Part shown: one piece after another, positions 29,298 to 47,605 of the stretch
Position numbering within the stretch: position 1 is the first letter of the stretch
Layout: each line of letters begins with the position of its first letter
DNA from: Hoylesella nanceiensis DSM 19126 = JCM 15639
Lineage (GTDB): Bacteria > Bacteroidota > Bacteroidia > Bacteroidales > Bacteroidaceae
DNA length: 64,000 nucleotides
Assembly: GCF_000379965.1 (NCBI RefSeq)
Contig: NZ_KB904332.1
Location: forward strand, 62,001-126,000
Direction of reading: 5' to 3'
Made by a program: the position numbers and the translations under genes
The notes under the pieces: generated by a model
Seen by the model: the letters and a program-made list of their open reading frames with translations, nothing else
Told to the model about the DNA's origin: nothing
Databases searched by the model: none

Positions 29298-29310
29298 TGC
29301 AATCGTTTTG

Positions 29311-30782: not shown

Positions 30783-30783
30783 T

Positions 30784-31176
30784 ATGCTTATATTAATATT
30801 ATCACTTGTCGTCTTGGGCTGTTTTGCTGCCCTTTTAGGTCTTATCTCGCATAAAAAAACAGGTAAAGACGATGTTATTCTCGAAGGTTCTGGCTCGTGT
30901 TCTACATGCAATGGCGATGATGAACACTGCATTCACGACTGCATTTTGGAAGCTGCTGTGAAGGAAGTGGAATACTTTGACGATGAAAATTTGGACGCTT
31001 TTATTGGCAGAGAGAGCGACAGTTACAATGAAAAAGAAATTGAACAGTTTCGTGAAATACTTTATACTATGAATCAAAAGGAGGTTGCCGACTGGAATAG
31101 AAGCTTGACTATACGGGGCATTAATATTCCTAATGATTTGAAAGACGAAATGATAATGATGATAGAAAACAACTAA
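30784..31176 (+). CDS. Membrane-anchored Cys-rich small protein
   Basis: No function is assigned. The 130 residues begin with one hydrophobic segment (LILILSLVVLGCFAALLGLI, 2-21), followed by a short basic stretch and a Cys cluster CSTC...CIHDC at 39, 42, 49 and 53, arranged CxxC-x6-CxxxC. The remainder is acidic and probably helical. The pattern suggests a metal or Fe-S site on the cytosolic face. The gene abuts both neighbours: aroA ends one base before it, and the ABC-3 permease starts at the base after its stop. Confidence 0.8.
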   Translation: MLILILSLVVLGCFAALLGLISHKKTGKDDVILEGSGSCSTCNGDDEHCIHDCILEAAVKEVEYFDDENLDAFIGRESDSYNEKEIEQFREILYTMNQKEVADWNRSLTIRGINIPNDLKDEMIMMIENN

Positions 31177-31986
31177 ATGGATATTTTAAGCTATTCTTTC
31201 TTTCAACATGCACTCATCGGAAGCTTGCTGGCAAGTATCCTTTGCGGAATTATTGGCACTTATATTGTAACCCGAAGACTGGTTTTTATAAGTGGAGGAA
31301 TTACGCATGCATCGTTCGGTGGCATTGGTATTGGGGTGTTCTTGGGCATCAATCCCATTCTATCAGCAATGGTGTTCTCTATCATGAGCGCTTGCGGTGT
31401 GCAGTGGTTGTCGACTAAAGGGAACATAAGAGAAGACTCTGCGATTGCTATGTTTTGGACTCTTGGAATGAGCATCGGTATTATTTGCAGTTTCTTAACG
31501 CCTGGATTTATGCCCGATTTGCCTTCGTTCTTGTTCGGAAGTATCCTTACGATTGGCGTTTCCGACCTGCTTTTGCTCGGCTCTTTGTGCCTCATCACCA
31601 CCCTTTTGTTTGTGTTTTTCTATCAAACAATTATCTGTGTGGCCTTCGATCCCATCTTTGCTAAGTCGCAACGTTTGCCTGTTCAAACGATAGAATACGT
31701 GCTGATGATTCTCATTGCCATGGCTATTGTCTCTACATTGCGCATGGTTGGAATTGTATTGGCTATGAGTTTGCTCACCATTCCACAAATGACTGCCAAC
31801 TTATTTACCTACAATTTCAAGCGAATGATTCATCTAAGTATTGCCTTTGGCTGGTTAGATTGCCTCTTAGGTCTTAGCATTAGCTATTGGTTTAACGTGC
31901 CTTCGGGGGCTTCAATCATCTTCATTGGAATTGTGATGTATGCCTTATGCAAAGCATTTAAAACCATTCAGCAACATATTCATTAA
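31177..31986 (+). CDS. ABC-3 family metal (Zn/Mn-type) permease
   Basis: This is the membrane subunit of a ZnuB/TroC/MntB-type metal ABC importer. The 269-residue polytopic protein contains FFQHALIGSLLASILCGIIG, YIVTRRLVFISGGITHASFGGIGIG near 28-52, and RMVGIVLAMSLLTIPQMTANL near 187, which are family hallmarks. No ATPase or solute-binding gene is beside it, so its partners must be elsewhere. Its start directly follows the stop of the Cys-rich membrane protein gene. Which metal it moves cannot be told. Confidence 0.9.
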   Translation: MDILSYSFFQHALIGSLLASILCGIIGTYIVTRRLVFISGGITHASFGGIGIGVFLGINPILSAMVFSIMSACGVQWLSTKGNIREDSAIAMFWTLGMSIGIICSFLTPGFMPDLPSFLFGSILTIGVSDLLLLGSLCLITTLLFVFFYQTIICVAFDPIFAKSQRLPVQTIEYVLMILIAMAIVSTLRMVGIVLAMSLLTIPQMTANLFTYNFKRMIHLSIAFGWLDCLLGLSISYWFNVPSGASIIFIGIVMYALCKAFKTIQQHIH

Positions 31987-32009
31987 TATAAAACAACACA
32001 CTTAACGAC

Positions 32010-35000
32010 GTGAAACAGTTAAAAGCCATATCAGTTCCATTGCTAATGTTGATAGTTCTACTAACAACAATAGCCTGCTCGTCGCATAAAAACACGGCAA
32101 GTAGCCGCTGGTGGCAAGGCTTTAACACCCGATATAATGTTTATTATAACGGAAAATTGGCGTATATAGATGGTGCTTTGGAGAAAGAAAACTCGAATAA
32201 AGATAACTTCACCGAGCTACTTCCATTGTACACGGTAGCCAATAAGCAGTCGAAAAACCTCGGAAGTGGTAGCTTTGACCGAGCAATAGAGAAGTCTAAG
32301 AAGGCAATTAAGCTGCATAGCATTACCAAAAGACCTGAATGGACAAAGCAAAGACGCAAAACCGAGAAAGATATAGAATGGCTTAGTCGCAAAGAATATA
32401 ACCCCTTTATTTGGAAAGCATGGCTACTTATGGGACGTTCTCAATTCCATAAGGGTGAATTTGATGAGGCTGCGGCTACCTTTTCGTACATGAGTAGACT
32501 CTATAAGACGCAACCTGCCATCTATGGAAGGGCTCGTGCGTGGCTCGCTAAGTGCTATATTGAACAAGGATGGCTATACGATGCAGAAGATGTTATTCGC
32601 AATATGCAACGTGACTCCATTCATTGGAGAGCACAAAAGGAATGGAACTACACTTTAGCAGATTACTATATCCACACAAAAGACTATCAAAAGGCGGTGG
32701 TTTATCTTCGTAAAGTGATTCAACAAGAGATGAGAAAGAAGCAAAAAGCACGTGAATGGTTCCTCATGGGACAGCTTCAAGAACTCTTAGGGAATAACAA
32801 TGAGGCTTATAAAGCATATCAACACGTTGTGCGTTTGAATCCTCCTTATGAGACAGAGTTCAATGCTCGCATCGCAATGACGGAGGTATTGGCAGACAAA
32901 CAATCGGCTAAAATGGCTGGAAAGCTAAGAAGAATGGCTCTTTCTGATAAGAATAAGGACTATAAAGACCGTATTTATTACGCTTTAGGAAACATCTATC
33001 TACTTCAAAAAGACTCACTAAAGGCCATCAGTTCGTATGAAAGAGGGCGAAAAGAGAGTACCCGTAATGGCGTTGAAAAAGGCGTATTGTTACTTAAACT
33101 CGGTGATATCTACTGGAATAAGGAGCAATACGACAAGGCAAAGTCGTGCTATGGAGAAGCTATTGGCTTGATAGATAAGGAGCGAGAAGATTATCCTGAA
33201 CTATCGAAAAGATCGACTATTTTGGATAAGTTGGTGCCTTTTACCAACGAGATAGCCCTTCAAGACTCGCTACAAGCATTGGCATTAATGCCCGAAAGTG
33301 CCCGTAATGCAGCCATAGACCGTGTTATTACGGCTCTAAAGAAGAAGGAAAAGGAAGAAAAAAGCAAGGAACAAGAAGACTATGCACGCAACATTCAAAG
33401 AGAGAATGGTGGCTTTGACGTAGACGATGGACGTGATATCATTAGCAACAACAATGCTAATGACTCTAAACAATGGTATTTCTACAACCAACAAGTGGTG
33501 AATCAGGGTAAAGCTGCATTCGAGAAGCTTTGGGGAAGACGTGAGAATACCGACAACTGGCAACGAAGTAACAAAACAGTTGTGGGCACAAACACCAATA
33601 AACAGAATGTTGTTGGACAAGAAAACAACGACACTACAGACGTTATTGATATGGACTCGCCTACTGATTCGGTTTCTAATATGAGCGATTCAAACGACCC
33701 TCACAAGCGAAGTTACTATCTTGCGCAAATTCCTTTCACGCCAGAACAACTCAAAGAAAGCAACGATAAGCTAAGCAACGCATTGTATCAGTCGGCGGTT
33801 ATCTTTAAAGATGAATTGGATAACCTACGCTTAAGCGAGCGCAACTTTATGCGTTTAGAGACTCAATTCCCTGGAAATAGCCACGAAGCAGAGGCTTATT
33901 ACCATTTATATCTATTGTATTCACGCTACAAAAACACGGCAAAAGCCAATCATTATCTTGCTCTTTTAAAGGATAAGTATCCTAAAAACGAGCTAACAAA
34001 CATCTTAACCGACCCTTATTTCGTGCAAGATGCACAGAATGGAAAGCACTTTGAAGATTCATTATATGCCGAAACATACGAGGCTTTCAAAGCTAATGAT
34101 ATCTATAAGGTTAGAAACAATCTTGCAATATCAACCAAACGCTTCCCCAAAGGCGCCAATAGAGATAAGTTTTTGTTTATCGGTGCGCTTGGAAAGTTAA
34201 ACAATGGAGAACCCAAAGAGTGCTTAGAAGACTTAGAAAACATTGTTACCAACTTCCCAAATAGTAAGCTTAACCACCTTGCAGGCAATATTATTAATGG
34301 CGTAAAAGCAGGTAGAAAGCTTCAAGGAGGCAAGTTTGATATGTCTAAAATGTGGAATCAAAGAAGCGAAGTGTTGAACAACACCGACTCAACTGCTGTT
34401 AAATCGTTTACCAACGACACCAACATTCCATTCATGGTGTTGATGGTTTACAACCCCGATTCTATCGATAAAAACAAGCTTTTATATGCCATTGCGAAAT
34501 ACAACTTCACTGGTTTCCCTGTAAGAAGTTTCGACATCGATACCCAAAGCTCACCCAATGGCGAGGAAATGCAGATTGGAGGCTTCAATAATTTCGATGA
34601 AGCGTTGCTCTATGCTCGTAAGATTAGACAACAACGAGATATCATTCGCTTGCTCAGTAAGGCGCACATATATGTCATCAGCAATAAAAATGCTGAGCTA
34701 CTCCATAGCGGTTTGGGTTATGAAGCATACGAAAAGTTCTATAACAAGCACTTCTCTGCAGCTAAACTTCCACCAATTACGCTACTCAACGAGCCAAGTT
34801 CTATCACAACGGCAAAAGAGTCAGACAACAATAAGACCGAAGAAGCGCCCAAAGAAAGCATAGACAATGGTGCTACGGTTATTCCTTTAGAGCCCGAATT
34901 GGTTGCTCCTAAGGCTGAAACGATTATTCCTTTAGAAGAAATAAAAGAGCAAACGCCTCAACAAGGCACTCAACAAGGCTCTACAACTGTGATTATTGAA

Positions 35001-35351
35001 GACGAAAAGCCACAACCAAAGGCATCGACAAACAATGACACTAAGAAGGAAACAAAGGCTACTCCTGCCCCAACTACAAAGGGTAAACAGCCTCAAAAAA
35101 CTGCCACTAAGCAGCCAACCACAACTAAACCAACCACAAAGACACCACAACAGCAACCTAAAAAGTTGCCTGCGAAAGAGGAAACAACCACTACTCGCAC
35201 TGGAATTTACTTTGGAGATGGTTTTGGCGAGCCTGCTTCTAAAACTCCAACTCAAAACAAACAGGAGAAGAAGGACACGCAAAAGAAAGACGAAAAGAAA
35301 ACAAAACGTTTTGATTTAGAAGACGATTATTATGAACTTGAAGGTTTTTAA
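32010..35351 (+). CDS. porW: PorW/SprE-like tetratricopeptide lipoprotein of type IX secretion
   Basis: PorW/SprE is an outer-envelope lipoprotein needed for type IX secretion and gliding. The 1113 residues start with a signal peptide and lipobox TIAC (Cys23), then the signature WWQGFNTRYNVYYNGKLAY near 34. A long run of TPR-type helical repeats covers about 125-420, including FIWKAWLLMGRSQFHKGEFDEAA and YYALGNIYLLQKDSLKAISSY, with a second block near 600-760. The last 150 residues are a Lys/Thr/Pro/Gln-rich low-complexity tail. The protein is longer than P. gingivalis PorW (about 600). porX starts 3 bases after its stop, which strongly supports the call. Confidence 0.85.
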   Translation: MKQLKAISVPLLMLIVLLTTIACSSHKNTASSRWWQGFNTRYNVYYNGKLAYIDGALEKENSNKDNFTELLPLYTVANKQSKNLGSGSFDRAIEKSKKAIKLHSITKRPEWTKQRRKTEKDIEWLSRKEYNPFIWKAWLLMGRSQFHKGEFDEAAATFSYMSRLYKTQPAIYGRARAWLAKCYIEQGWLYDAEDVIRNMQRDSIHWRAQKEWNYTLADYYIHTKDYQKAVVYLRKVIQQEMRKKQKAREWFLMGQLQELLGNNNEAYKAYQHVVRLNPPYETEFNARIAMTEVLADKQSAKMAGKLRRMALSDKNKDYKDRIYYALGNIYLLQKDSLKAISSYERGRKESTRNGVEKGVLLLKLGDIYWNKEQYDKAKSCYGEAIGLIDKEREDYPELSKRSTILDKLVPFTNEIALQDSLQALALMPESARNAAIDRVITALKKKEKEEKSKEQEDYARNIQRENGGFDVDDGRDIISNNNANDSKQWYFYNQQVVNQGKAAFEKLWGRRENTDNWQRSNKTVVGTNTNKQNVVGQENNDTTDVIDMDSPTDSVSNMSDSNDPHKRSYYLAQIPFTPEQLKESNDKLSNALYQSAVIFKDELDNLRLSERNFMRLETQFPGNSHEAEAYYHLYLLYSRYKNTAKANHYLALLKDKYPKNELTNILTDPYFVQDAQNGKHFEDSLYAETYEAFKANDIYKVRNNLAISTKRFPKGANRDKFLFIGALGKLNNGEPKECLEDLENIVTNFPNSKLNHLAGNIINGVKAGRKLQGGKFDMSKMWNQRSEVLNNTDSTAVKSFTNDTNIPFMVLMVYNPDSIDKNKLLYAIAKYNFTGFPVRSFDIDTQSSPNGEEMQIGGFNNFDEALLYARKIRQQRDIIRLLSKAHIYVISNKNAELLHSGLGYEAYEKFYNKHFSAAKLPPITLLNEPSSITTAKESDNNKTEEAPKESIDNGATVIPLEPELVAPKAETIIPLEEIKEQTPQQGTQQGSTTVIIEDEKPQPKASTNNDTKKETKATPAPTTKGKQPQKTATKQPTTTKPTTKTPQQQPKKLPAKEETTTTRTGIYFGDGFGEPASKTPTQNKQEKKDTQKKDEKKTKRFDLEDDYYELEGF

Positions 35352-35354
35352 GCT

Positions 35355-36908
35355 ATGAATAATGGACTACTTTTATGGATTGATGATGAGATTGAGCTTT
35401 TAAAAGCACATGTCTTATTCTTAAAGCAAAAAGGATATGAGGTGATAACTGTTAGCAATGGCTTCGATGGTATTGAGCAATGCAAACAACATTCCTTTGA
35501 CCTTATCTTGTTAGACGAGATGATGCCTGGTATAACTGGGTTGGAAACGCTTCAGCAAATAAAAGAGATTACGCCTTCAACACCCGTTGTTATGCTCACA
35601 AAGAGCGAGGAAGAAGATATCATGAACCAAGCAATTGGTTCTAAAATTGCCGATTATCTCATCAAACCTGTTAATCCAAACCAAATCATTCTATCGTTAA
35701 AAAAGAACATACACCGCAAAGAAATTGAGACGGAAGTGACGCAAATGAATTATCAACAGAGCTTTCTCGACATCTCAACTCAAATCAGTAACTGTTCAAA
35801 CTACAACGATTGGATCGACGTTTACAAGCGTTTGGTGCGCTGGGAGCTTGATTTAAGCAACACAAACAGCGCAATGAGCGAGATGCTAAGCATGCAAAAA
35901 GAGGAAGCTAACAATGGATTCACTAAGTATGTAAAATCGAATTATATTGATTGGGTGAACGGAAAAGACGCTAACAAGCCTTTGATGAGCCCTGAAATAT
36001 TCAAAACTAAGCTCTTTCCCCTTATCGATCAAGGCGAAAAAGTCTTCCTACTTATATTAGATAACTTGCGCTTCGATCAGTGGAAGGCGCTCTATAACGA
36101 CATCGCTTTGCTATATGATATCGATGAAGACCTTTACATGAGCATTCTACCCACAGCCACTCAATATGCCCGAAACGCTATTTTCAGCGGCTTAATGCCT
36201 ATGAACATTGCTAAAATGTTCCCTCATTTATGGGTAGAAGAAGATGAAGACGAGGGCAAGAACCAACACGAAGAGGAATTGATTGCAACGCAAATAGAAC
36301 GTTATAGAAGACATGATACTTTCTCATACTTTAAAGCTAACGACTCAACGGTATTAGAAAAGTATCTTGAAAACATTCGTTCTCTTGAAAAAAATCATTT
36401 CAATGTGTTGGTAATTAACTTCATTGACATGCTCTCACATGCGAGAACTGAGTCGAAAATGGTGCGTGAATTGGCATCAGATGAGCAGGCTTATCGAAGC
36501 TTAACCTTAAGTTGGTTCAAGCATTCAGCGGTGAGTGAGCTACTTAAACAATTGGCTGAAAAAGACTATAAGGTTATTATCACGACCGACCATGGTAGTA
36601 TTCGCACCAATAAACCTATCAAAATCATCGGTAAAAAGAATATCAATAGCAACTTACGATATAAATTTGGCAACACACTTGCCTACAATCAAAAGGAAGT
36701 TTTTTGTATAAAAGATCCACAAAAGGCACTTCTTCCATCGCCTAACATCAGTACTGAATATGTATTTGCAACGGGAGATAGTTTCTTTGCCTATCCCAAC
36801 AACTTCAATCACTATGTGTCTTACTACAAAAACACATTCCAACACGGTGGTATCAGCATGGAAGAAATGTTGGTTCCGCTCATCACTTTAACTCCAAAGA
36901 ATAAATAA
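35355..36908 (+). CDS. porX: PorX, response regulator with PglZ domain
   Basis: PorX regulates type IX secretion and in P. gingivalis was shown to have phosphodiesterase activity in its PglZ domain. The 517 residues begin with an intact receiver: acidic pocket D10/D11, phosphoacceptor D54 in LILLDEMMPG, T82 and K104. A helical linker covers about 120-215. The alkaline-phosphatase-like PglZ domain follows, with FLLILDNLRFDQW (D236), LPTATQYARN near 265, INFIDMLSH and TTDHGSIR. The gene follows the porW-like gene and precedes tsaE. No PorY-type kinase lies in the window. Confidence 0.94.
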   Translation: MNNGLLLWIDDEIELLKAHVLFLKQKGYEVITVSNGFDGIEQCKQHSFDLILLDEMMPGITGLETLQQIKEITPSTPVVMLTKSEEEDIMNQAIGSKIADYLIKPVNPNQIILSLKKNIHRKEIETEVTQMNYQQSFLDISTQISNCSNYNDWIDVYKRLVRWELDLSNTNSAMSEMLSMQKEEANNGFTKYVKSNYIDWVNGKDANKPLMSPEIFKTKLFPLIDQGEKVFLLILDNLRFDQWKALYNDIALLYDIDEDLYMSILPTATQYARNAIFSGLMPMNIAKMFPHLWVEEDEDEGKNQHEEELIATQIERYRRHDTFSYFKANDSTVLEKYLENIRSLEKNHFNVLVINFIDMLSHARTESKMVRELASDEQAYRSLTLSWFKHSAVSELLKQLAEKDYKVIITTDHGSIRTNKPIKIIGKKNINSNLRYKFGNTLAYNQKEVFCIKDPQKALLPSPNISTEYVFATGDSFFAYPNNFNHYVSYYKNTFQHGGISMEEMLVPLITLTPKNK

Positions 36909-36930
36909 CAATTACACAACAATAATAAAA

Positions 36931-37344
36931 ATGAAAATAAAAATCAATAGTATTGCAGACATTAAAACTGCTGCACAAGAATTTATTAACAACATAAACG
37001 GCAGTACTGTTTTTGCTTTTTATGGCTCAATGGGTGCTGGAAAAACCACATTTATCAAGGCTGTGTGCGAGTGTTTGGGTGTAGATGATGTGATTACATC
37101 ACCCACTTTCGCTATTGTTAACGAGTATCATGCTGACAACGATTCGAAAGTAATATACCACTTCGATTTCTATCGCATTAAAAAGTTAGAAGAAGTATAC
37201 GACATGGGTTATGAGGATTATTTCTATAGCAATTCGCTTTGCTTTATTGAATGGCCCGAATTGATCGAAGAGTTGTTGCCTGCTAACGCTAAAAAGGTTA
37301 CGATCACCACTTTAGAAGACGGCACAAGAGAGATCGAAATGTAA
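36931..37344 (+). CDS. tsaE: TsaE, tRNA t6A synthesis ATPase
   Basis: TsaE is the ATPase that supports the TsaB-TsaD complex making t6A37 on ANN-decoding tRNAs. The 137 residues contain the P-loop GSMGAGKTTF at 32-41, ITSPTFAIVNEY near 69, and HFDFYRIKKLEEVYDMGYEDY near 91, all typical. It follows porX after 22 bases and is the last gene of the operon. A palindrome and a strong terminator come right after its stop. Confidence 0.96.
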   Translation: MKIKINSIADIKTAAQEFINNINGSTVFAFYGSMGAGKTTFIKAVCECLGVDDVITSPTFAIVNEYHADNDSKVIYHFDFYRIKKLEEVYDMGYEDYFYSNSLCFIEWPELIEELLPANAKKVTITTLEDGTREIEM

Positions 37345-37349
37345 TTTTT

Positions 37350-37370
37350 CACCTTATTATATATAAGGTA
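37350..37370. repeat. ACCTTATTATATATAAGGT palindrome, copy 3
   Basis: This is a perfect 19-bp inverted repeat beginning 7 bases after the tsaE stop and upstream of the operon terminator. Related copies are at 1311-1330 and 25608-25625. Confidence 0.65.
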
Positions 37371-37378
37371 TAGATAAT

Positions 37379-37423
37379 AAAAGAATGAGCCTTTGGTTTT
37401 CAAAGACTCATTCTTTTGTTTTT
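37379..37423 (+). terminator. Terminator of the aroA-tsaE operon
   Basis: AAAAGAATGAG pairs with CTCATTCTTTT, with an inner CTTTG/CAAAG stem, followed by GTTTTTATAG. Confidence 0.9.
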
Positions 37424-37466
37424 ATAGTTATCGTAATTGTCTGCCGAAGACTATCTGCCTACCTTC

Positions 37467-38606
37467 TTAACGAGGGCATTTTGAAATGCGAATAGGCAAG
37501 TCGAGCACTTTATCGGGTGCGACACTACGAGTGGTTGTCGTTTTCTTTGGACCTGGAATAAGTGGACTATAATAAAGCACTTGGCGCATTCTATATTGCT
37601 GATTGGGTGTGAATGCGTAAGAATAGCAATAAGCATAATCCATTATATTGGTGGCTTCATAAACCTTTCCCGAGCAATCTTTGCGTTGGAAGAGCTCATG
37701 TACGTTGCTTGATGTTAAGCGACTTGCCAAATCTAACGCATCTTTTTCATATTGCTTTTTATTATATGAAGGTGTGTCTTGGCAATAATCGCTATCAACA
37801 CAACTATCTATCACACCATTATTTCTATCTTCTGCAAACACATGGAACAAGCCTAAGTAGTGTCCAAGTTCGTGTGCAAGGGTCACAACAACATCTTCTT
37901 CTTTATATCCTCTAAAGGTTTTCTCTTTCAAACTCGAAGTGTAACGAGCCGAAAGCGTATTGATATACTTTGCATTGATTGACACTGACAATGGGAAAGA
38001 AATGTTTTTCTTTGTCATTTTTCCAATGGCAACCTGTTCAAGTCCTTGTAATGTGGCGTTTTCTTTGGTCTTATAAGGCATGTGACTGATACCTAACACC
38101 TCGCCTTCACCACCATCTTCATCGAAAAGATACACGAATACGTTGATGTATTTATTAGGATCCCAAAGGTATTTGGTGTATTTATTGCCGTTACTGGTCA
38201 TGAAATTTTCGCAGTTAATGGGGTATTTCTCGTCCCATTGGTCATACACCACGCCTTGTGTTTTCATCTTTTCGCCCTTCTCATCTTCTGTTGCTGCAAC
38301 AAACTTTACACGAATATTGGCACTGGGTCCATAAATTCCACCTGCATAAAGTTCATTAACATAGAAAAGAAGACGGCGCAAATGGGCGTCGTTTGGAATG
38401 TATTCTTGCTTTGTTGTGCTGTTCGAAAGCACATGAAACACCACTGGCAACTCGTATAATGTGTTGTCGTTGATCTCTTTGGGAGTTTCTTTTTCTTCTT
38501 TTGGTATTGTTTTTCCGTTGTCGATAGGCTCTTTATCGCAAGCCATAAGTGCAACAACTACAAACAAACAACAAAATATTTTTGCTATTATTGTTTTCTT
38601 ATTCAT
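37467..38606 (-). CDS. M43-type zinc metalloprotease lipoprotein
   Basis: This is a metzincin-type zinc endopeptidase (pappalysin/cytophagalysin family M43) anchored as a lipoprotein. The 379 residues have a signal peptide with lipobox LMAC (Cys23), then a Lys/Glu/Pro linker. The zinc site HELGHYLGLFH is at 245-255 and the Met-turn is NIMDYAY near 322. Cysteines at SCVDSDYCQDTPS and KDCSG probably form the disulfides usual in the family. It is monocistronic, convergent with tsaE across the 37379 terminator. A good promoter lies at 38654-38684. Surface or periplasmic proteolysis is the likely role; the substrate is unknown. Confidence 0.92.
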   Translation of the reverse strand: MNKKTIIAKIFCCLFVVVALMACDKEPIDNGKTIPKEEKETPKEINDNTLYELPVVFHVLSNSTTKQEYIPNDAHLRRLLFYVNELYAGGIYGPSANIRVKFVAATEDEKGEKMKTQGVVYDQWDEKYPINCENFMTSNGNKYTKYLWDPNKYINVFVYLFDEDGGEGEVLGISHMPYKTKENATLQGLEQVAIGKMTKKNISFPLSVSINAKYINTLSARYTSSLKEKTFRGYKEEDVVVTLAHELGHYLGLFHVFAEDRNNGVIDSCVDSDYCQDTPSYNKKQYEKDALDLASRLTSSNVHELFQRKDCSGKVYEATNIMDYAYCYSYAFTPNQQYRMRQVLYYSPLIPGPKKTTTTRSVAPDKVLDLPIRISKCPR

Positions 38607-38653
38607 AAGTATTATGTTATCTTTTCTTTTTACCTAATATCTTCTGAGAACGA

Positions 38654-38684
38654 CAAAAATACGCTTTATTTTTTTATTTTCAAA
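38654..38684 (-). promoter_or_regulatory. Promoter of the M43 protease gene
   Basis: On the minus strand TTTG (38681-38684), 19 bases and TATTTTTG (38654-38661), about 48 bases before the ATG. Confidence 0.75.
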
Positions 38685-38741
38685 AGGTTTGGCTCTGAAT
38701 TTATTATTTTTTGTTAGAATCTTCTACCCTATTCTCTTTCT

Positions 38742-38895
38742 ATTTGCATTGTTATTGCCATCTAAAAGCATTGATTTTGATTGGCAATTGCATTGAGTTT
38801 TGTCGATAATTGCATTGCTTTTTGCTGGTAATAGTATAAACTTTGGGTCGTAATAATATTACTTTTATCAGCTATTTTCACTGAGTTAGCAATTC
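38742..38895. repeat. Array D: 22-bp phased repeat, seven units
   Basis: Units begin at 38742, 38764, 38786, 38808, 38830, 38852 and 38874. Starts read ATTTGCATTG, AAAAGCATTG, AATTGCATTG, AATTGCATTG, AATAGTATAA, AATAATATTA and ATTTTCACTG. The A at position 1 and T-rich positions 12-15 are kept throughout and the step is exactly 22. This is the longest array in the window. Confidence 0.85.
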
Positions 38896-38913
38896 TGTTG
38901 CTATCCTTTCGGC

Positions 38914-38954
38914 ATAAAAAATAGGCGATAGCTCGCAATGAGTTATCGCCTATT
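38914..38954 (-). terminator. Terminator of fba
   Basis: On the minus strand AATAGGCGATA pairs with TATCGCCTATT and is followed by TTTTTTATG. Confidence 0.9.
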
Positions 38955-38982
38955 GAATATTAAATCGAAATAAACTTTCTTA

Positions 38983-39993
38983 TTAGTCGATTTGAGCTAG
39001 CTTGAAATCAGAACCAAGAACGTTCTTAACTTTGTGCTCATAAAGCTCTGTCATCAAGTCACGTGCAGGTCCACAGTACTTACGTGGGTCGAATTCTCCT
39101 GGGTTTTCAGCAAACACTTTGCGTACTGCTGCAGTGAAAGCAAGACGAGAGTCAGAGTCGATGTTAATCTTACATACTGCACTCTTAGCTGCTTTACGAA
39201 GTTGTTCTTCAGGAATACCAACTGCATCAGGTAACTTACCGCCGTTCTCATTGATAATTTTTACATACTCTTGAGGTACAGATGAAGAACCATGTAGTAC
39301 GATAGGGAATCCTGGAAGTTTCTCCATAATAGCATCAAGGATATCGAATGCCAATGGTGGTGGAACCAAAAGGCCAGTCTTTGGATCACGAGTACATTGC
39401 TCTGGAGTGAACTTATAAGCACCATGTGAAGTACCAATAGAGATCGCAAGTGAATCAACTCCAGTCTTAGTAACGAAGTCAATTACTTCTTCAGGGTGTG
39501 TATAGTGTGACTCTGCTGCAACAACATCGTCCTCAACACCAGCTAAAACGCCTAATTCACCTTCAACAGTTACATCAAATTGGTGTGCATATTCTACCAC
39601 CTTCTTTGTTAATGCAACGTTTTCGTCGTAAGGTAAGTGTGAACCATCAATCATTACAGATGAGAAACCGTAATCAATACAGCTCTTACATGTTTCGAAT
39701 GTATCTCCATGATCTAAGTGAAGAGCAATCTCAGGATGTTTGTTTCCAAGTTCTTTTGCATATTCAACTGCTCCTTGAGCCATGTAACGAAGAAGTGTTT
39801 CGTTAGCATAAGCACGAGCACCTTTTGATACTTGAAGGATAACTGGTGACTTTAATTCAGATGTTGCCTTAATAATTGCTTGCAACTGTTCCATGTTATT
39901 GAAGTTGAAAGCAGGAATAGCGTAACCGCCATTGATAGCTCTTTTAAACATCTCACGAGTGTTTACAAGACCTAAAGATTTGTAATCTACCAT
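38983..39993 (-). CDS. fba: Class II fructose-bisphosphate aldolase
   Basis: This zinc-dependent aldolase cleaves fructose 1,6-bisphosphate to DHAP and glyceraldehyde 3-phosphate. The 336 residues show AIPAFNFNNMEQLQAI near 25, the catalytic/zinc region LHLDHGD near 92-98, TVEGELGVLAGVEDDV near 142, SIGTSHGAYK near 192 and LHGSSSVP near 238. It is monocistronic with a consensus promoter and a strong terminator, as expected for a highly expressed glycolytic gene. Confidence 0.96.
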   Translation of the reverse strand: MVDYKSLGLVNTREMFKRAINGGYAIPAFNFNNMEQLQAIIKATSELKSPVILQVSKGARAYANETLLRYMAQGAVEYAKELGNKHPEIALHLDHGDTFETCKSCIDYGFSSVMIDGSHLPYDENVALTKKVVEYAHQFDVTVEGELGVLAGVEDDVVAAESHYTHPEEVIDFVTKTGVDSLAISIGTSHGAYKFTPEQCTRDPKTGLLVPPPLAFDILDAIMEKLPGFPIVLHGSSSVPQEYVKIINENGGKLPDAVGIPEEQLRKAAKSAVCKINIDSDSRLAFTAAVRKVFAENPGEFDPRKYCGPARDLMTELYEHKVKNVLGSDFKLAQID

Positions 39994-40039
39994 ATTCTTA
40001 TTATTTTTTAATGAATAGTTTATATTTATCTTAGTGTTG

Positions 40040-40071
40040 CAAAGTTAACATTTTAATTCTTTCCTAACAAA
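40040..40071 (-). promoter_or_regulatory. Promoter of fba
   Basis: On the minus strand TTTG (40068-40071), 20 bases and TAACTTTG (40040-40047). Confidence 0.85.
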
Positions 40072-40150
40072 GAATAGCATTGTTTTTTATATATTTCTTG
40101 CCATTAATGAATCCCTTTTACGTTTTATTTCATCGTAAATGTACTTTCTA

Positions 40151-41401
40151 TTACTTATTTATTTGTCTTCTACCCTTTAGTAAGTAGATTGCATACAATG
40201 TGACAACATTAAATCCTACCGCTGGAATGATAAATGGAAGAACGTGATTTGTGGTATCAGCAATATAGCCCATAAGCAAGAATCCGCATCCTCCTATAGG
40301 CGTCATCATCAACAACGACGATGCTCTTTTGGTTAAACCGCCTAAGTTTTGTAATGCAAGAGAGAAGATAGTGGGGAACATTATGGCCTCGAAAAGATAC
40401 ACTCCAAGAAGCCCAACCATTGATATTACCTTGAAATTCATTAGCACCAAAGCACAACAAAGGGATGCTCCCAATCCACAAACAGTCAAAACGAGTTGTG
40501 GGCGTATGTGTTTCATAATGTAACTGCCTAAGAATCTACCCACCATAAAGAAGCCCAAAGCCAACGTTAGCAATAATGATGCAGTGCTATCGCTCATCCA
40601 ATTCATTCCAGTTACAAAGTTTATGAAATAGCTATTGATTGATATTTCAGCTATTTCGTAAGCTAACAACGCTGTTAAACCAAAGGTAAATGACTTGATT
40701 TGAACGAGTTGAATAAGTGATTTACCTAAACTTTCGCTATGTAGATTATCGTTATGAGGTATTTCGGGAAGCGAAACACGAGAGAATAAGAATGCAATAA
40801 AGAGCACAATAACGCCTAAGATGACATAAGGCACAAGCACATCGGTTATTCTTGAGGTTGATTCTGCGTCCGAAGTAGCTGTTTCTCTGAAGAAGAAAAG
40901 ACCCACAACAGATGTTGCAAACAAACTTCCTAAGCCGTTAAACGATTGAGATAGGTTCAATCTACTTGTGGCTGTTTGAGGAGATCCCAATTCTGTTACA
41001 TACGGATTGGCAGCCGTTTCGAGGAAGGTTAAGCCACAACCGATAACGAAAAGAGCCAAGAGAAAGATGTTAAAGCCACCTATATACACTCCAGGAATAA
41101 AGCTAAACGAGCCTATTGCAAAGAGAATGAGCCCTAAAACCACTCCTTTTCGATATCCAAATTTATTGATAAACATACCAGAAGGTATGGCCATGAGGAA
41201 ATATCCTAAATAAGTTGTAACCTGAATCCATGCCGATTGGGTAATAGTGATACCCAATTCGTTCTGAAAATGTTTGTTGAGCACGTCTAATATGGCACGT
41301 GCAAAGCCCCATAAAAAGAACAAAAGAGTTATCATTACGAATGGAATGAGATACTTTTGTTCGGTTAGTTTGTGCTGTTTTTTATCACTACTAGCATCCA
41401 T
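40151..41401 (-). CDS. FucP-like sugar MFS transporter
   Basis: This is a major facilitator of the fucose/glucose/galactose:H+ symporter (FHS) family in the inner membrane. The 416 residues form about 12 membrane segments. Family landmarks are FVMITLLFFLWGFARAILDVLNKHFQ near 21, FLMAIPSGMFINKFGYRKG near 71, and LTFLETAANPYVTELGSP near 124 with LNLSQSFNGLGSL after it. It is monocistronic, with a consensus promoter at 41544-41574, and is divergent from lrgAB. The transported sugar cannot be stated. It is not adjacent to a catabolic gene set. Confidence 0.9.
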   Translation of the reverse strand: MDASSDKKQHKLTEQKYLIPFVMITLLFFLWGFARAILDVLNKHFQNELGITITQSAWIQVTTYLGYFLMAIPSGMFINKFGYRKGVVLGLILFAIGSFSFIPGVYIGGFNIFLLALFVIGCGLTFLETAANPYVTELGSPQTATSRLNLSQSFNGLGSLFATSVVGLFFFRETATSDAESTSRITDVLVPYVILGVIVLFIAFLFSRVSLPEIPHNDNLHSESLGKSLIQLVQIKSFTFGLTALLAYEIAEISINSYFINFVTGMNWMSDSTASLLLTLALGFFMVGRFLGSYIMKHIRPQLVLTVCGLGASLCCALVLMNFKVISMVGLLGVYLFEAIMFPTIFSLALQNLGGLTKRASSLLMMTPIGGCGFLLMGYIADTTNHVLPFIIPAVGFNVVTLYAIYLLKGRRQINK

Positions 41402-41543
41402 TATTATATTGTTTAGTCTTATTTTATTTTCTTATTCAGTCCTTTTGCTCTCCCTTCAAAAAGCAAGCGAGCATCAATCCTTTGATAAGTTGTATCAAAT
41501 CGTTTTGTTTCTGTTTACTCAACAGATTCCTTTTTTTGCATTG

Positions 41544-41574
41544 CAAAGGTACATATTATAGGTAAAACACCAAA
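41544..41574 (-). promoter_or_regulatory. Promoter of the sugar MFS gene
   Basis: On the minus strand TTTG (41571-41574), 19 bases and TACCTTTG (41544-41551). The leader to the ATG is about 140 bases. Confidence 0.85.
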
Positions 41575-41725
41575 ACTTAAATAATATTTATATTTTTCCT
41601 AACATCATTATCTTTCCCAACTTTTTATTTTTCGACATTCAATAGGTCTCTAACTTGATTAAAAACAATGAAAATACGCACAGCTATAGAATTAGTCTTA
41701 TTCTTGAGAAGTTCGTTGTAAATAA

Positions 41726-41757
41726 GTTGTATAGCACACTTTTAAATTGTAACTTTG
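41726..41757 (+). promoter_or_regulatory. Promoter of lrgAB
   Basis: GTTG (41726-41729), 20 bases and TAACTTTG (41750-41757), about 85 bases before the lrgA ATG. Confidence 0.7.
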
Positions 41758-41842
41758 CAATTGGTAGAGCTTAAAAGCCTATCCAACAAGAATAAATATC
41801 ACAAAACATAACATCAAATAAAAGGGTAACACCTTCATAATT

Positions 41843-42244
41843 ATGGCACGACAATTCTTTATTATCTTTGGTTGCTTAGCCATAGGCGAGTTTATTGTTT
41901 GGCTAACGGGCATCAAACTGCCTTCGAGTATCATAGGAATGCTTGCGCTAACAGCCCTCTTAAAGTTCAATATTGTAGAACTTTCGTGGGTTCAAAAGCT
42001 ATCAGAGTTCTTGATATCTAACCTTGGTTTCTTCTTTGTTCCACCAGGAGTAGCTATCATGTTGTATTTAGATTTAATCCAAAAAGAATTTATTCCAATC
42101 ATCTTGGCAACGGTTGTCAGTACCATTTGCGTGCTTATCGCCACAGGACAAGCCCACCAATTGGTGATAAAGATTGAAAGAATGATTATCAAGAACAAGT
42201 TACTTCATATTAGAAGACTAAGAAGAAACAAAAAAGAAGAATAG
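41843..42244 (+). CDS. lrgA: CidA/LrgA family membrane protein
   Basis: LrgA/CidA proteins are holin-like membrane proteins linked to autolysis control and, with LrgB, to pyruvate or overflow-metabolite transport in Gram-positives; the role in Bacteroidota is not established. The 133 residues have about four membrane segments. The family pattern is visible as GEFIVWLTGIKLPSSIIGMLALTALL near 15-40 and NLGFFFVPPGVAIMLYLDLI near 65. It is followed after 2 bases by lrgB, the usual pair. Confidence 0.9.
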   Translation: MARQFFIIFGCLAIGEFIVWLTGIKLPSSIIGMLALTALLKFNIVELSWVQKLSEFLISNLGFFFVPPGVAIMLYLDLIQKEFIPIILATVVSTICVLIATGQAHQLVIKIERMIIKNKLLHIRRLRRNKKEE

Positions 42245-42246
42245 TT

Positions 42247-42945
42247 ATGAGCAGTTTCTTTTCTAACCAATATATTATATTAGCACTCACCTTCGGCGTA
42301 TTTTACTGCGCTCGTCGTTTACAACAACGCACTGGTTGGATTTTGCTTAATCCCATCTTCATAGCCATAGTTGTAATTATTTGCTATTTAAAGATCACCA
42401 AAGTTCCTTTCTCTGTATATAGAGAGAATGCCCAACTCATCGAGTTTTGGCTCAAACCAGCCGTAGTTGCTCTTGGAGTTCCTTTGTATATGCAGTTTAA
42501 AGCCATACAACGTTTGTGGTTTCCACTGATGATAGCCCAGTTTATTGGCACCTGTGTAGGTATTATTAGTTCCGTTTTAGTGGCGAAACTCTTTGGCGCT
42601 TCGAAGCTTGTTGTTATATCAATGGCAGCCAAATCGGTAACAACTCCTATCGCAATGGAGGTCACTACATCTTTAGGAGGTATCCCTGCACTTACCGCTG
42701 CCGTTGTAGTTATCACAGGAGTACTTGGTGCAATCATGGGATTTAAAACGCTTTATTATGGTCATGTCAGCAGTCCTATCGCCCAAGGGCTCTCAATGGG
42801 CTCGGCAACTCACGCCGTTGGAGCCTCAACAGCCATGATTCACAGTCCCAAATACGGTGCATTCGCCAGCTTAGGAATCATTCTTAACGGTATCTTTACA
42901 TCGTTATTAACCCCCACCATATTGCGCTTAGTAGGCATCTTATAA
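42247..42945 (+). CDS. lrgB: LrgB family membrane protein
   Basis: This is the partner of LrgA. The 232-residue polytopic protein shows LKPAVVALGVPLYMQFKAI near 75, the conserved AAKSVTTPIAMEVTTSLGGIPALTA stretch near 127, and GSATHAVGASTAM near 190, all typical of LrgB/YohK. It starts 2 bases after lrgA. Repeat array E follows its stop. Confidence 0.92.
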   Translation: MSSFFSNQYIILALTFGVFYCARRLQQRTGWILLNPIFIAIVVIICYLKITKVPFSVYRENAQLIEFWLKPAVVALGVPLYMQFKAIQRLWFPLMIAQFIGTCVGIISSVLVAKLFGASKLVVISMAAKSVTTPIAMEVTTSLGGIPALTAAVVVITGVLGAIMGFKTLYYGHVSSPIAQGLSMGSATHAVGASTAMIHSPKYGAFASLGIILNGIFTSLLTPTILRLVGIL

Positions 42946-42981
42946 TCCTTTGTAAATGAATTAGATACCTATTAAAAAAAC

Positions 42982-43069
42982 AAAAGCTATCTTTTTACTG
43001 GGAAATAACATTCCTTTTACAATGCAATAGCTATCCTTTTACACAGGAAAAGCAATCTTATTACAATCT
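42982..43069. repeat. Array E: 22-bp phased repeat, four units
   Basis: Units begin at 42982, 43004, 43026 and 43048 (AAAAGCTATC, AATAACATTC, AATAGCTATC, AAAAGCAATC). A fifth partial unit (TAAAGCATAACC) runs to within about 10 bases of the next ATG. Here position 10 is C rather than G in all four units. Confidence 0.85.
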
Positions 43070-43092
43070 TAAAGCATAACCATCAAAGAACA

Positions 43093-46062
43093 ATGACTAA
43101 TCAACCGCAACACCAATGGAGCAAGTTCTATCTTAAAGATGTGACCTTTGCCAACTTAATGATGCGACGCATTTATAACATTTTGATTGTGGCTAACCCC
43201 TATGATGCCTTTATGCTTGAAGATGATGGGCGCATTGAAGAGAAGATATACAACGAGTATATGGAGCTTGGAATGCGCTATCCGCCTACATTTACGCAGG
43301 TGAGCACCATTGAAGAGGCTGAGGATATATTGGAAAAGACCAATATAGACCTTGTTATTTGTATGCCAGGTAATGCCGACAACGATGCTTTCGACGTGGC
43401 AAGAGCCATTAAATGCAAGTTTACAGCTATCCCATGCGTGGTTTTAACACCCTTTTCTCATGGTATAACAAAGCGTATGCAGAACGAAGATTTAAGTATT
43501 TTCGATTACGTTTTCTGCTGGTTAGGTAACACAAACCTCATTCTTTCAATCATTAAACTGATTGAAGACAAGATGAATATCGAGCAAGATATCGAAGAAG
43601 CGGGCGTTCAAATGATTCTATTGGTCGAAGACTCCATTCGCTTCTACTCGTCTATTCTCCCCCATTTATACAGTTTCATTCTTGCACAAAGTAAGCGTTT
43701 ATCAACCGAAGCGCTCAATCGTCATGCCGCAACTCTACGTCAACGAGGTCGACCTAAAGTGGTTTTGGCTCGTACCTACGAAGAGGCTATGGCGTTGTAC
43801 AATAAATATCGTGACAATACTCTTGGTGTTATTAGCGATGCACGCTTTCCTTTTAAGGGCGAAAAAGACCCTGAAGCGGGCTTAAAGCTATTGTCTGAGA
43901 TTAGAAAACACGACGAATATATTCCGCTTATCATGCAAAGTGCAGAGTCGGAGAATAGAGAAAAGGCTGAAAAATCAGGCTTCCGATTCGTTGATAAGAA
44001 CTCTAAAAAGATGAGTTTAGACCTCCGTCACCTCATGGAAGAGCACATGGGATTTGGTGATTTCATCTTTCGTGACCCCAAAACACGCAAAGAAATCATG
44101 CGAATTAGTACACTAAAGGAGCTTCAAGACAACATCTTCACCATTCCAAACGACTCTATGCACTACCATATATCACGCAATCACGTGAGTCGTTGGCTAT
44201 GTGCTCGAGCCATTTTTCCCGTTTCTGCGTTCCTAAAAGATATCACTTGGCATAAATTACAGGACGTAGATACGCACCGACAGATTATCTTTGACGCCAT
44301 AGTTCAATATCGACACATGAAGAATATCGGTGTTGTGGCTGTATTCGACCGCTATAAATTCGACCAATATGCGCACTTTGCACGCATTGGAGAAGGCTCT
44401 TTGGGGGGCAAAGGTAGAGGTCTTGCATTCTTAGACAATATCATTAAGACCAATACTGAGTTCGAACAATGGCAAGGAGTGAGTGTTCAAATACCCAAAA
44501 CGCTGGTGCTTTGTACAGATATCTTCGACCAATTTATGGAGAAGAACAATCTTTATCACATCGCATTGAGCAATATTTCGGACGAAGAGATATTGAATAA
44601 CTTCTTAAAAGCTGAGCTTCCGCAACAATTAAGAGAAGACTTTATCACCTTCTTTAAGGCCACTAACACCCCAATAGCTATTCGTTCGTCATCGCTTTTG
44701 GAAGATGCTCACTACCAACCGTTCGCTGGAATATACTCAACTTACATGATTCCGCATCTCAATGATCAAGAATTGATGCTCGATATGCTTGAATCTGCTA
44801 TCAAAGGAGTGTATGCTTCGGTGTATTATAAGGACTCAAAAGCTTATATGACGGCCACAAGTAATGTGATAGACCAAGAGAAAATGGCGGTAATTCTGCA
44901 AGAAGTGGTGGGCAAAAACTACGACCATTACTTCTATCCAACCATCAGTGGGGTACTAAGATCTATCAACTACTACCCCATTGGTAACGAAACGGCTGAA
45001 GAAGGCGTTGCTTCTTTGGCCTTAGGATTGGGTAAATACATTGTAGATGGAGGCTTAACGCTTCGTGTTTCGCCACATCATCCACACCAAGTGTTGCAAA
45101 CAAGCGACACAGAAATAGCGCTTCGAGAGACTCAAACACGCTTTTATGCGCTCGATCTCAATGACATTGATTCGCTGTTTAAGGTAGACGACGGCTTTAA
45201 TATCAAGACTTTGCGTGTAAAGGAGGCTGAAAATCATGGCTCTTTAAACTACATTTCGTCTACATACGATGCATACGACCAAATCATTCGTGAAGGTTTT
45301 TACCCACAAGGACGCAAGATTATCTCTTTCACAGGGGTGCTTCAACAAGGCGTTTTCCCTCTTCCTGAGTTGTTACAGATAGCTCAACGCTGTGGAGCAG
45401 ACGCCATGAAACGACCTATTGAGATTGAGTTTGCTTGCAACATCAACGACGATAGAACGGGAAGTTTGTATCTATTGCAAATCAGACCCATTGTAGATAG
45501 TAAGCAAATGCTGAACGAAGACGTGGCAGCAATAGACGATTCGCAATGCATTTTGCGCTCGCACAACTCGTTAGGGCACGGCATTATCGACGATATTACA
45601 GACGTTGTGTATGTTAAAACAGACGATTCTTTCACCGCTGCAAATAACTATTATGTTGCAAATGATATCGAACGTCTGAACAAAAGCTTTGTAGATGAGA
45701 ACAAAAACTATATTCTTATAGGTCCAGGACGATGGGGTTCGAGCGATCATTGGTTGGGAATACCTGTTAAATGGCCTCATATTAGCGCAGCAAAGCTCAT
45801 TATTGAGACCTCATTGGCTAACTATCGCATTGATCCAAGCCAAGGAACGCACTTCTTTCAGAACCTAACAAGCTTTGGAGTGGGCTACTTTACGATTGAT
45901 GAAAACACCAAACAAGGATTTGTTCAACAACAAATTCTCGACGAAATGCCTGCTGTTGAGGAAACAAAATATGTGCGACACGTGCGTTTTTCTCAACCTC
46001 TTAGAATCTTAATGGACGGCAAACGCCAAGAAGGAGCGGTGCTTTTTCCCGAAACCAACTAA
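43093..46062 (+). CDS. Receiver-domain plus PPDK-type ATP-binding protein
   Basis: The product is 989 residues and cytosolic. Residues about 25-160 look like a degenerate receiver (DLVICMPGNAD where the phosphoacceptor loop should be). About 170-330 is a second receiver with LLVEDS near 175, SDARFP near 245 and a conserved Lys (FVDKNS). From about 425 to 800 comes the ATP-grasp domain of PEP synthase/pyruvate phosphate dikinase: GSLGGKGRG near 437, IRSSSLLEDA near 530 and LLQIRPIV near 793. A distinct C-terminal domain has GPGRWGSSDHWLG. The swivelling phosphohistidine domain and the PEP-binding barrel are absent, so it is not a complete PEP synthase. The family is known in Bacteroidota but I know no function. 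Confidence 0.85.
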   Translation: MTNQPQHQWSKFYLKDVTFANLMMRRIYNILIVANPYDAFMLEDDGRIEEKIYNEYMELGMRYPPTFTQVSTIEEAEDILEKTNIDLVICMPGNADNDAFDVARAIKCKFTAIPCVVLTPFSHGITKRMQNEDLSIFDYVFCWLGNTNLILSIIKLIEDKMNIEQDIEEAGVQMILLVEDSIRFYSSILPHLYSFILAQSKRLSTEALNRHAATLRQRGRPKVVLARTYEEAMALYNKYRDNTLGVISDARFPFKGEKDPEAGLKLLSEIRKHDEYIPLIMQSAESENREKAEKSGFRFVDKNSKKMSLDLRHLMEEHMGFGDFIFRDPKTRKEIMRISTLKELQDNIFTIPNDSMHYHISRNHVSRWLCARAIFPVSAFLKDITWHKLQDVDTHRQIIFDAIVQYRHMKNIGVVAVFDRYKFDQYAHFARIGEGSLGGKGRGLAFLDNIIKTNTEFEQWQGVSVQIPKTLVLCTDIFDQFMEKNNLYHIALSNISDEEILNNFLKAELPQQLREDFITFFKATNTPIAIRSSSLLEDAHYQPFAGIYSTYMIPHLNDQELMLDMLESAIKGVYASVYYKDSKAYMTATSNVIDQEKMAVILQEVVGKNYDHYFYPTISGVLRSINYYPIGNETAEEGVASLALGLGKYIVDGGLTLRVSPHHPHQVLQTSDTEIALRETQTRFYALDLNDIDSLFKVDDGFNIKTLRVKEAENHGSLNYISSTYDAYDQIIREGFYPQGRKIISFTGVLQQGVFPLPELLQIAQRCGADAMKRPIEIEFACNINDDRTGSLYLLQIRPIVDSKQMLNEDVAAIDDSQCILRSHNSLGHGIIDDITDVVYVKTDDSFTAANNYYVANDIERLNKSFVDENKNYILIGPGRWGSSDHWLGIPVKWPHISAAKLIIETSLANYRIDPSQGTHFFQNLTSFGVGYFTIDENTKQGFVQQQILDEMPAVEETKYVRHVRFSQPLRILMDGKRQEGAVLFPETN

Positions 46063-46227
46063 TCTATCACACTGCAACTAAAAAGCAAGAAGATGACAAC
46101 CGAAATGCTCATGCTTTGCAAGTTCTCTGCAACGATATTATAATTTTATAACATTCTCTTATTAACTTAGCCATAGTTAGTAAGGGAATTTTGCATTTTT
46201 ATTGTGCAATAATTATTCTATATTCTG

Positions 46228-46235
46228 TAAATTTG
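46228..46235 (+). promoter_or_regulatory. Possible -7 box of the XylR-type regulator gene
   Basis: TAAATTTG fits TAnnTTTG and lies 36 bases before the ATG at 46272. The upstream TTG is at a poor spacing (23 bases), so confidence is limited. Confidence 0.45.
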
Positions 46236-46271
46236 CAATACTAAACCCTACAACTAAACATCTATCCAATC

Positions 46272-47438: not shown

Positions 47439-47548
47439 ACACACGCCTTTACGTTCTTTTTAGGATTCATTTTTTGTGGGGATAGCATCGCTCACAAGGC
47501 ATAATAATTTCATTATTTTTAGGTATTTTATGGTTATTCGCAACATTG

Positions 47549-47556: not shown

Positions 47557-47605
47557 CAACCAACAAACCACGAATAACTTTTCACGATAAACAAAAATAA
47601 TTATT

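Follow-up and report, generated by a model that had tools for sequence, protein, structure and literature searches.

The analysed DNA, a stretch of 64,000 nucleotides that we call the window, carries seven arrays of a short repeat, which the first-pass annotation had recognized and which we found at the coordinates given there, with a step of exactly 22 bp (Table 1). The repeat unit consists of a 15-bp near-palindrome, approximately AAAAGC-AnT-GCTTTT, followed by seven variable bases. When a weight matrix trained on the same 32 units that it then scored was summed over three units, the arrays reached 56.7 to 68 bits, and the next-best place in the window, which belongs to the tail of the 38742 array, scored 25.8 bits, followed by one at 14.5 bits. 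The 5759 array had to be extended by a fourth unit, and exactly four units were recognized by the weight matrix in five of the seven. The 38742 array had been presented as the longest, with seven units; the weight matrix recognizes six in it, and eight can be traced in register, the last one weak. Its counterpart in the sister genome G276 is about 88 bp shorter, and the 38742 array is an atypical family member and not its best example. The gene at 43093-46062 (+), which starts 24 bp past an array, encodes a PPDK_N domain and a response-regulator-like stretch that scores below the curated cut-off.

Table 1. Arrays, neighbouring genes and periodicity in the 64-kb window
Feature	Position	Strand	Context
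Array, 4 units	5759..5846	no strand	3' of gene ending 6052 (-), upstream of tRNA-Met (-)
Array, 4 units	17401..17488	no strand	Flanked by two minus-strand genes
Array, 5 units by weight matrix (to 28892), more weak in-register units	28790..28943	no strand	Adjoins tRNA-Pro (-) at 29224
Peptidase_M43 gene	37467..38606	-	Neighbour of the 38742 array
Array, 6 units by weight matrix, 8 in register	38742..38917	no strand	4 units in G276
Aldolase gene	38983..39993	-	Neighbour of the 38742 array; terminator-like hairpin behind the gene
Array, 4 units	42982..43069	no strand	Ends 24 bp before start codon 43093 (+)
Array, 4 units	48449..48536	no strand	Convergent intergenic region
Array, 4 units	55091..55178	no strand	Flanked by two minus-strand genes
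Coding-DNA A/T periodicity, 10.98 bp, phase-coherent over kilobases (by correlation)	1..64000	no strand	

The genome containing the window (G000; 2.65 Mb in 12 contigs) was searched with a sequence-only three-unit model built from one three-unit piece per array. At least 230 matches were obtained at E ≤ 1, from 150 scored of 4607 first-look candidates, an array often being counted once on each strand. The window's own contig, which was not picked for matches, holds 26 arrays in 224 kb, and we estimate about 300 arrays per genome if they are evenly spread. A 624-kb sample of the same genome contained 97 arrays, 82 of them with four units (two units in 1, three in 4, five in 8 and six in 2), and 240 kb of G276 contained 26, of which 20 have four (three units in 1, five in 3 and six in 2). 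Stretches of further genomes, chosen around matches, gave five units in 9 of 17 arrays of G012 and 2 of 3 of G001, five or six in 6 of 8 of G006, and three in all 3 of G005. Of 59 other relatives, 13 had arrays by the three-unit model at E ≤ 0.001, and among 15 named-record genomes the model detected them in 8 at E ≤ 0.01. This second set is led by P. brunnea with 138 matches, followed by BV3P1 with 107, X. rarus with 50 and P. pallens with 42.

The palindrome itself differs by genome, being AAAACCTATGGTTTT in G006, AAAATCAGTGATATT in G005 and AAAAGCTTAGCTTTT in P. brunnea. P. pallens also carries further 22-bp arrays with quite different palindromes within one genome (L216 8362, L217 9632 and 15217, L114 5933), and the same is seen in G335 (L231, L232, L045, L254) and G108 (L246 18178, L247 18579, L248 17993); CAGATATCTG, AGCTTATAAGCT, GTACTCnGAGTAC and TTACGTGTAA are examples from these three genomes. 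More than one protein, or more than one generation of sites, would seem to use a common 22-bp geometry. Palindromic arrays with a 22-bp step and about four units, each showing a different consensus, occur in other Bacteroidales records as well (L109 7393, L115 1866, L047 18690, L229 79, L041 13131, L233 1130, L234 12016 and L066 545). In G108, a near relative of P. pallens (85% identity of the aldolase gene), arrays of 4-5 units with a common unit order and a common tail lie in many places (L246-L250). An array of P. brunnea (L096 11126-11205) is located behind an aldolase gene, as in the window, and the two aldolase genes are only 73% identical.

The spacing was also evident without any model. 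The first-pass annotation had proposed autocorrelation at lag 22 as a check, and the excess was indeed present genome-wide and in related Prevotella. A lag scan of the 624-kb sample with coding DNA kept in counted 86 events for lag 22, and none of the other lags between 13 and 40 exceeded 5. On the 224-kb contig, 74 pairs of consecutive strong cores lie less than 60 bp apart, and their distances are 22 bp in 67 cases, 44 bp in 5, and 42 and 43 bp in one each. A 44-bp scan of other genomes, comparing lag 22 with all other lags from 14 to 33, gave 14 versus 0 events in G108, 10 versus 1 in P. brunnea, 5 versus 0 in BV3P1, 3 versus 0 in X. rarus, 10 versus 8 in P. pallens and 7 versus 4 in G335. 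Among 71 named Bacteroidales aldolase loci (1.31 Mb, long ORFs removed), lag 22 was found 23 times, lag 14 12 times and lag 21 10 times; thus, the excess is modest outside Prevotella-like genomes.

We examined what kind of element the unit represents. In the 82 four-unit arrays, core identity was 0.733 within and 0.726 between arrays, and the corresponding values for the spacers were 0.375 and 0.376. Since a unit resembles its neighbours no more closely than it resembles units from elsewhere, recent tandem duplication or slippage was not supported in this genome. Near-palindromes with terminal T runs would suit RNA hairpins or weak bidirectional terminators. However, pairing between the arms in 394 units of G000 was never significantly above shuffles (largest z 0.3) and fell below them at 3/13 (z -3.6), 5/11 (z -4.3) and 4/12 (z -2.2); 110 units of G276 gave deficits of the same sign but weaker (-1.7, -1.7 and -1.4). 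Such deficits would be expected of a two-armed protein site under stabilising selection. An Rfam search of the window returned only two tRNAs and nothing at the arrays. With neither an excess of compensatory arm changes nor an Rfam match at the arrays, we rejected the RNA hairpin model and give readings of this type almost no probability. Phased A-tract curvature of naked DNA alone, acting in the absence of a specific protein, is in keeping with the A and T runs that alternate every 11 bp in the unit and with the long-range A/T order described below. It has only a very slight probability in our judgement, as G5, C6 and G10 of the unit carry information equal to that of the A/T ends and the central letters vary between species while the geometry stays constant. 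The arrays are probably a row of dimer-type DNA sites, rather than an RNA hairpin or a recent tandem repeat. Four sites at 22-bp steps also bring to mind plasmid iterons and the ends of Tn7-type transposons.

Comparison with the sister genome revealed which parts of the arrays are conserved. Of 63 arrays from two large stretches of G000, 33 had no flank match in the fetched G276 DNA and 5 lacked synteny, which left 25 for comparison. Sixteen of these matched in register; since they were picked for equal unit chains, the absence of indels within them is by construction. Their 15-bp cores differ at 62 of 960 sites (6.5%), their 7-bp spacers at 68 of 336 (20%) and their 50-bp flanks at 282 of 1548 (18%), with 39 gap openings in the flanks. 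At the indel rate of the flanks, we infer that about one 81-bp stretch in eight would remain gap-free. The other nine arrays were aligned and read singly: six hold register, the 38742 array differs by the 88 bp mentioned above, one has decayed with indels in G276, and one three-unit array has no clear counterpart. Register is therefore maintained in 22 of the 25 orthologous arrays. The earlier suggestion that loose sequence and rigid spacing are under constraint was thus borne out by slowly changing cores and a kept register, and frequent indels between the units of orthologous arrays did not appear. The mostly constant unit number and the phase-locked A/T order of the surrounding genes had escaped the first-pass annotation. 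A four-unit array of G000 outside the window (C6 129937-130017, in L153) lies within a gene call and is almost unaltered in G276.

These comparisons bear on the possibility that the arrays are a dispersed selfish or decaying repeat that spread as a unit and grew by 22-bp slippage steps. The copies in G108, with a common unit order and a further tail as in a mobile or amplified repeat, the nearly identical units in L045 and the 88-bp difference of the 38742 array between the sister genomes would all fit such an origin. We nevertheless regard it as highly unlikely, because cores evolve more slowly than spacers and flanks, units show no excess identity within arrays, register is held in most orthologs, and the arrays are phase-locked with genes, as described below.

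All seven arrays of the window lie between ORFs, in agreement with the first-pass annotation. A crude gene caller assigned 56 of the 97 arrays in the larger sample to co-directional settings, 27 to convergent ones and 11 to divergent ones, and 3 are inside gene calls; one of the divergent cases is the 28790 array, beside a tRNA invisible to the gene caller. Among intergenic regions of at least 120 bp, arrays occupy 26 of the 44 convergent, 55 of the 150 co-directional and 10 of the 47 divergent ones (convergent versus divergent, Fisher p 2.7e-4). At 200-450 bp, occupancy was 16/20, 28/71 and 1/20, respectively, and above 450 bp it was 8/11, 22/32 and 9/18. Arrays prefer convergent intergenic regions and shun mid-sized divergent ones. 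Terminator-like hairpins were found at 57 of 102 3' ends with an array and at 55 of 110 without one, and in 49 of the 57 the hairpin stands ahead of the array. Since hairpins are about equally common in the two groups, the arrays do not replace terminators. The 91 occupied of 266 intergenic regions are spaced more evenly than chance (CV 0.486 versus 0.743), and none of 2000 simulations, whose weights come from the same data, was as low; two stretches tested separately gave P values of 0.001 and 0.01. The convergent-over-divergent preference, the hairpin ahead of the array and the even spacing would all suit arrays that are boundary elements only, at which a row of bound protein backstops read-through or supercoiling, the A/T lattice of the genes being a separate matter. 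We consider this unlikely: it leaves unexplained both the phase lock with genes kilobases away and the in-register spacing of arrays presented below, and half of the divergent regions above 450 bp hold an array.

The base composition around the arrays follows their register. Counted outward from 184 array ends of G000, intergenic A at positions 1-2 and T at positions 14-15 are over-represented in a 22-bp register for nine units, and this register was the best offset in each of the nine outer units. The same comb was observed in eight of nine units in G276 and in units one and five only in G012 (26 ends). It persists inside genes with a slow drift, which indicates a period just under 22 bp. In coding DNA 100-600 bp from arrays, the frequency of A is 0.415 at phase 0, with troughs of 0.23-0.29, and that of T is 0.434 at phase 13. 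The array-anchored power in coding DNA reached 482 for a period of 10.98 bp and 206 for one of 21.9 bp, whereas in 40 control trials with anchors randomly shifted by up to 400 bp the best power at 21.5-22.5 bp averaged 5.3 and never exceeded 12.6. With increasing distance, z stays above 3 for the 11-bp part of the lock as far as 2.5 kb, and for the 22-bp part it stays above 2 as far as 5 kb. The local 11-bp power is approximately constant at any distance from arrays; G276 shows the same picture, more weakly. Constant local power together with a fading lock means that the DNA is periodic throughout and that only the memory of phase declines.

This memory was measurable with the arrays masked. 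The 11-bp phase correlation between 220-bp coding windows fell from 0.72 at 220 bp to 0.48 at 1.1 kb, then to 0.28 at 2.2 kb and finally to 0.10 at 4.2 kb, and the 22-bp A-minus-T correlation was 0.24, 0.20, 0.21 and 0.165 at the same distances and 0.065 (se ~0.016) at 7.9 kb, with a best period of 21.96 bp. In the window alone, the 11-bp coherence was 0.73, 0.54 and 0.38 at 220 bp, 1.1 kb and 2.2 kb. A 50-kb stretch of E. coli K-12 gave values from -0.08 to 0.07 at 21.96 bp and at most 0.14 at its own best period over six lags. The spectrum of 500-bp windows peaks at 11.00 bp (5.15 times the median), and the amplitude by codon position is 0.128 at the third, 0.042 at the first and 0.026 at the second.

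Seven other genomes were tested for the lock, and it was present in six. For this test, the arrays and their dyads were delimited model-free, and the periods were those of the coherence analysis. At 220-700 bp from the arrays, none of 300 jittered sets reached the observed value in P. pallens, BV3P1, G108 and G012, and one did in G085. The lock of P. brunnea is weak (12/300) and is lost at 220-1200 bp (106/300), and G006 showed no significant lock at 220-700 bp (42/300). The phase relative to the dyad is similar across these seven genomes (resultant 0.95, p 0.002), their palindromes differing. Coherence at 220 bp was 0.68 in G016, 0.66 in P. pallens, 0.26 in P. brunnea and 0.23 in X. rarus. 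The 20 kb of G016 examined (L263) contained only weak lag-22 places and no lag-22 array at the usual threshold; as this DNA is coherent without clear arrays, arrays may not be needed for the lattice.

Arrays are also in register with each other. For 62 pairs of consecutive arrays less than 8 kb apart in G000, the best period between 9 and 40 bp was 21.96 bp (Rayleigh p 5e-9 at 21.965), which is the value obtained from coding DNA. The mean cosine declines with distance from 0.71 (<3 kb) through 0.59 and 0.43 to 0.20 (8-12 kb) and -0.45 (12-20 kb, n=6). In G276, which shares ancestry with G000, 29 pairs less than 8 kb apart peak at 21.98 bp (p 1e-4), pairs at 8-12 kb are out of register (mean cosine -0.23), and an earlier, smaller array set of this genome gave no significant in-register spacing. 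Where one or both arrays of a pair lay beyond the fetched stretches, the test gave p 0.06 for 14 pairs at <9 kb and p 0.32 for 24 pairs at 6-15 kb, and the six inter-array distances inside the window show no in-register spacing. The net indels between 27 neighbouring orthologous array pairs all lie within 7 bp of a multiple of 21.96 bp. Much of this fit is owed to small net changes; the 13 changes larger than 30 bp alone gave p 0.022, and in a period scan 12.33 bp fits these 13, and 22.5 bp all 27, better than 21.96 bp does.

The periodic order could be a by-product: a phased nucleoid structure, formed by plectonemes or an abundant wrapping protein, would leave a mutation bias at silent sites, and the arrays would follow the lattice, without setting it, as sites of a global protein that perform best when in register with it. 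The concentration of the signal at codon position 3, the local 11-bp power that is independent of array distance and the strong coherence of G016 in the absence of clear arrays are all compatible with this account. Against it, a stable register over kilobases is still required, and array distances and inter-array net indels lie near multiples of 21.96 bp; dinucleotide periodicity has also been argued to be under selection beyond mutational bias (PMC7537859). We regard a by-product as possible but rather unlikely.

Starting from the observed arrays with their fixed spacing and usual unit number, the constraint on their cores, the phase lock of coding A/T and the register of near neighbours, we consider a regular nucleoprotein coat whose register is set by the arrays to be the best explanation, with about an even chance of being correct. 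According to this explanation, an array would be a composite binding site, usually made of four dyad-symmetric 15-bp sites that follow one another along the same face of the helix at steps of 22 bp, or two turns, and would be recognized by a putative dimeric DNA-binding protein that binds cooperatively. Lying between transcription units, the arrays would fix the register of a coat that repeats every 21.96 bp (2 x 10.98 bp). This coat would spread outward through genes for kilobases, with A favoured on one side of each 22-bp unit and T on the opposite side, and would meet the coats of successive arrays in register. The presumable purpose would be to package the chromosome or to separate adjacent transcription units.

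Helical phase is lost over shorter lengths in free DNA, and a protein coat is the simplest physical account of a helical phase that is remembered over kilobases. A dimer every two turns would fit the A-versus-T component of period 22, and arrays acting as strong register-setting sites would be in keeping with the number of units, with the location between transcription units and with the in-register spacing. The freedom of the spacer letters at a fixed spacer length, the constrained cores and the similar phase in genomes whose palindromes differ lend it support. The intergenic comb of G012, absent past the first outer unit except in unit 5, speaks against it, as do the coherence of G016, the absent or weak locks of G006 and P. 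brunnea, the array pairs that are out of register, the weak or missing signal in the independent pairs and within the window, and the other periods that fit the indels better. The causal direction may run either way, from arrays to lattice or from lattice to array placement, and the periodic order may stem from selection or from a mutational imprint, both being compatible with the present data. The numbers of HU, HU-HIG and Lrp genes showed no clear relation to lattice or arrays. PF00216 matches number 5 each in G000, G276 and G016, 11 in P. pallens and 13 in G108, all of which are coherent, and 12 in G024 and 16 in G274.

Several known systems share individual features with the arrays. Lrp/AsnC proteins form octamers, and their four dimers bind 15-bp palindromes; the 15-bp palindrome of the unit is similar, and four dimer sites would fit an octamer. 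In contrast to such an octamer, the unit number varies by genome (3 to 6 and 8), the comb runs past four units, and the single Lrp-type gene of G000 (one PF01037 match) has no demonstrated link to the arrays. On these grounds, an Lrp octamer was not supported as the cause of the four units. BIMEs are a kind of palindromic repeat grouped with REPs. Like REP/BIME repeats (PMC3733652), the arrays are palindromic, intergenic and located between transcription units. They are distinguished by exact 22-bp rows and a phase relation to genes, and their unit consensus has neither the GTAG nor the CGTC tag of the REP superfamilies, which end a palindrome of 20-40 bp. PINSR, a 188-bp intergenic repeat of Prevotella intermedia, has more than 100 dispersed copies, mostly position-conserved between strains and with no known function (PMC4755523). 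Both are intergenic and dispersed in Prevotella. As described there, PINSR is one 188-bp sequence without 22-bp units, by which description it is set apart, and it is confined to the P. intermedia/nigrescens clade, whereas 22-bp arrays occur in G000, G276, BV3P1, P. brunnea, X. rarus and others. The common array tail of G108 may be PINSR, and PINSR is perhaps a local form of the arrays; both suggestions come from comparison by description.

Nucleosomes can be phased by barrier sites, so that fixed sites set the register. The archaeal histone analogue HTa (PMC6877293) is a precedent for a regular DNA coat with sequence periodicity, and the sequence signature seen here makes a coat of this kind a candidate; our case differs in its 22-bp repeat and its bacterial host, and no histone-like protein could be linked to the arrays. 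A bacterial "structural code" of A/T with a period of ~11 bp has been described (PMC3431218, PMC4132750, PMC7537859, PMC3940949). The ~11-bp periodicity, its preference for third codon positions and its persistence along some chromosomes are already known (PMC3431218, PMC4132750, PMC7537859), and the periodicity of E. coli DH10B reaches at least 1000 bp according to a figure legend (PMC7537859). The lattice found here shares the A/T period of 10-11.5 bp through coding DNA (11.00 bp, or 10.98 bp when anchored) and the predominance of third codon positions. It differs from the signal length of ~100 bp given in PMC4132750 by a coherence that is still appreciable at 1.1 and 2.2 kb, and from the ~11-bp periodicity as described there by a 22-bp A-versus-T component and an intergenic zero point in arrays. 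Within the open-licence literature, we found no account of four-unit 22-bp arrays or of a phase anchor.

Taken as a whole, the tentative proposal, to which we attach somewhat less than an even chance, is that the chromosomes of this Prevotella and its relatives are packaged in a bacterial chromatin with a 21.96-bp repeat, in which arrays of a lineage-typical unit number set the register, silent sites carry it, indels tend to multiples of ~22 bp, and the palindrome is rewritten between lineages while the 22-bp geometry is kept. The meaning of the ~11-bp A/T periodicity has been unsettled partly because it had no reference point, and the arrays supply a zero of phase for it. A regular, sequence-encoded bacterial chromatin thereby becomes a directly testable question. 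If the proposal is true, a chromosome-wide register would constrain silent sites and indel sizes in these human-associated bacteria.
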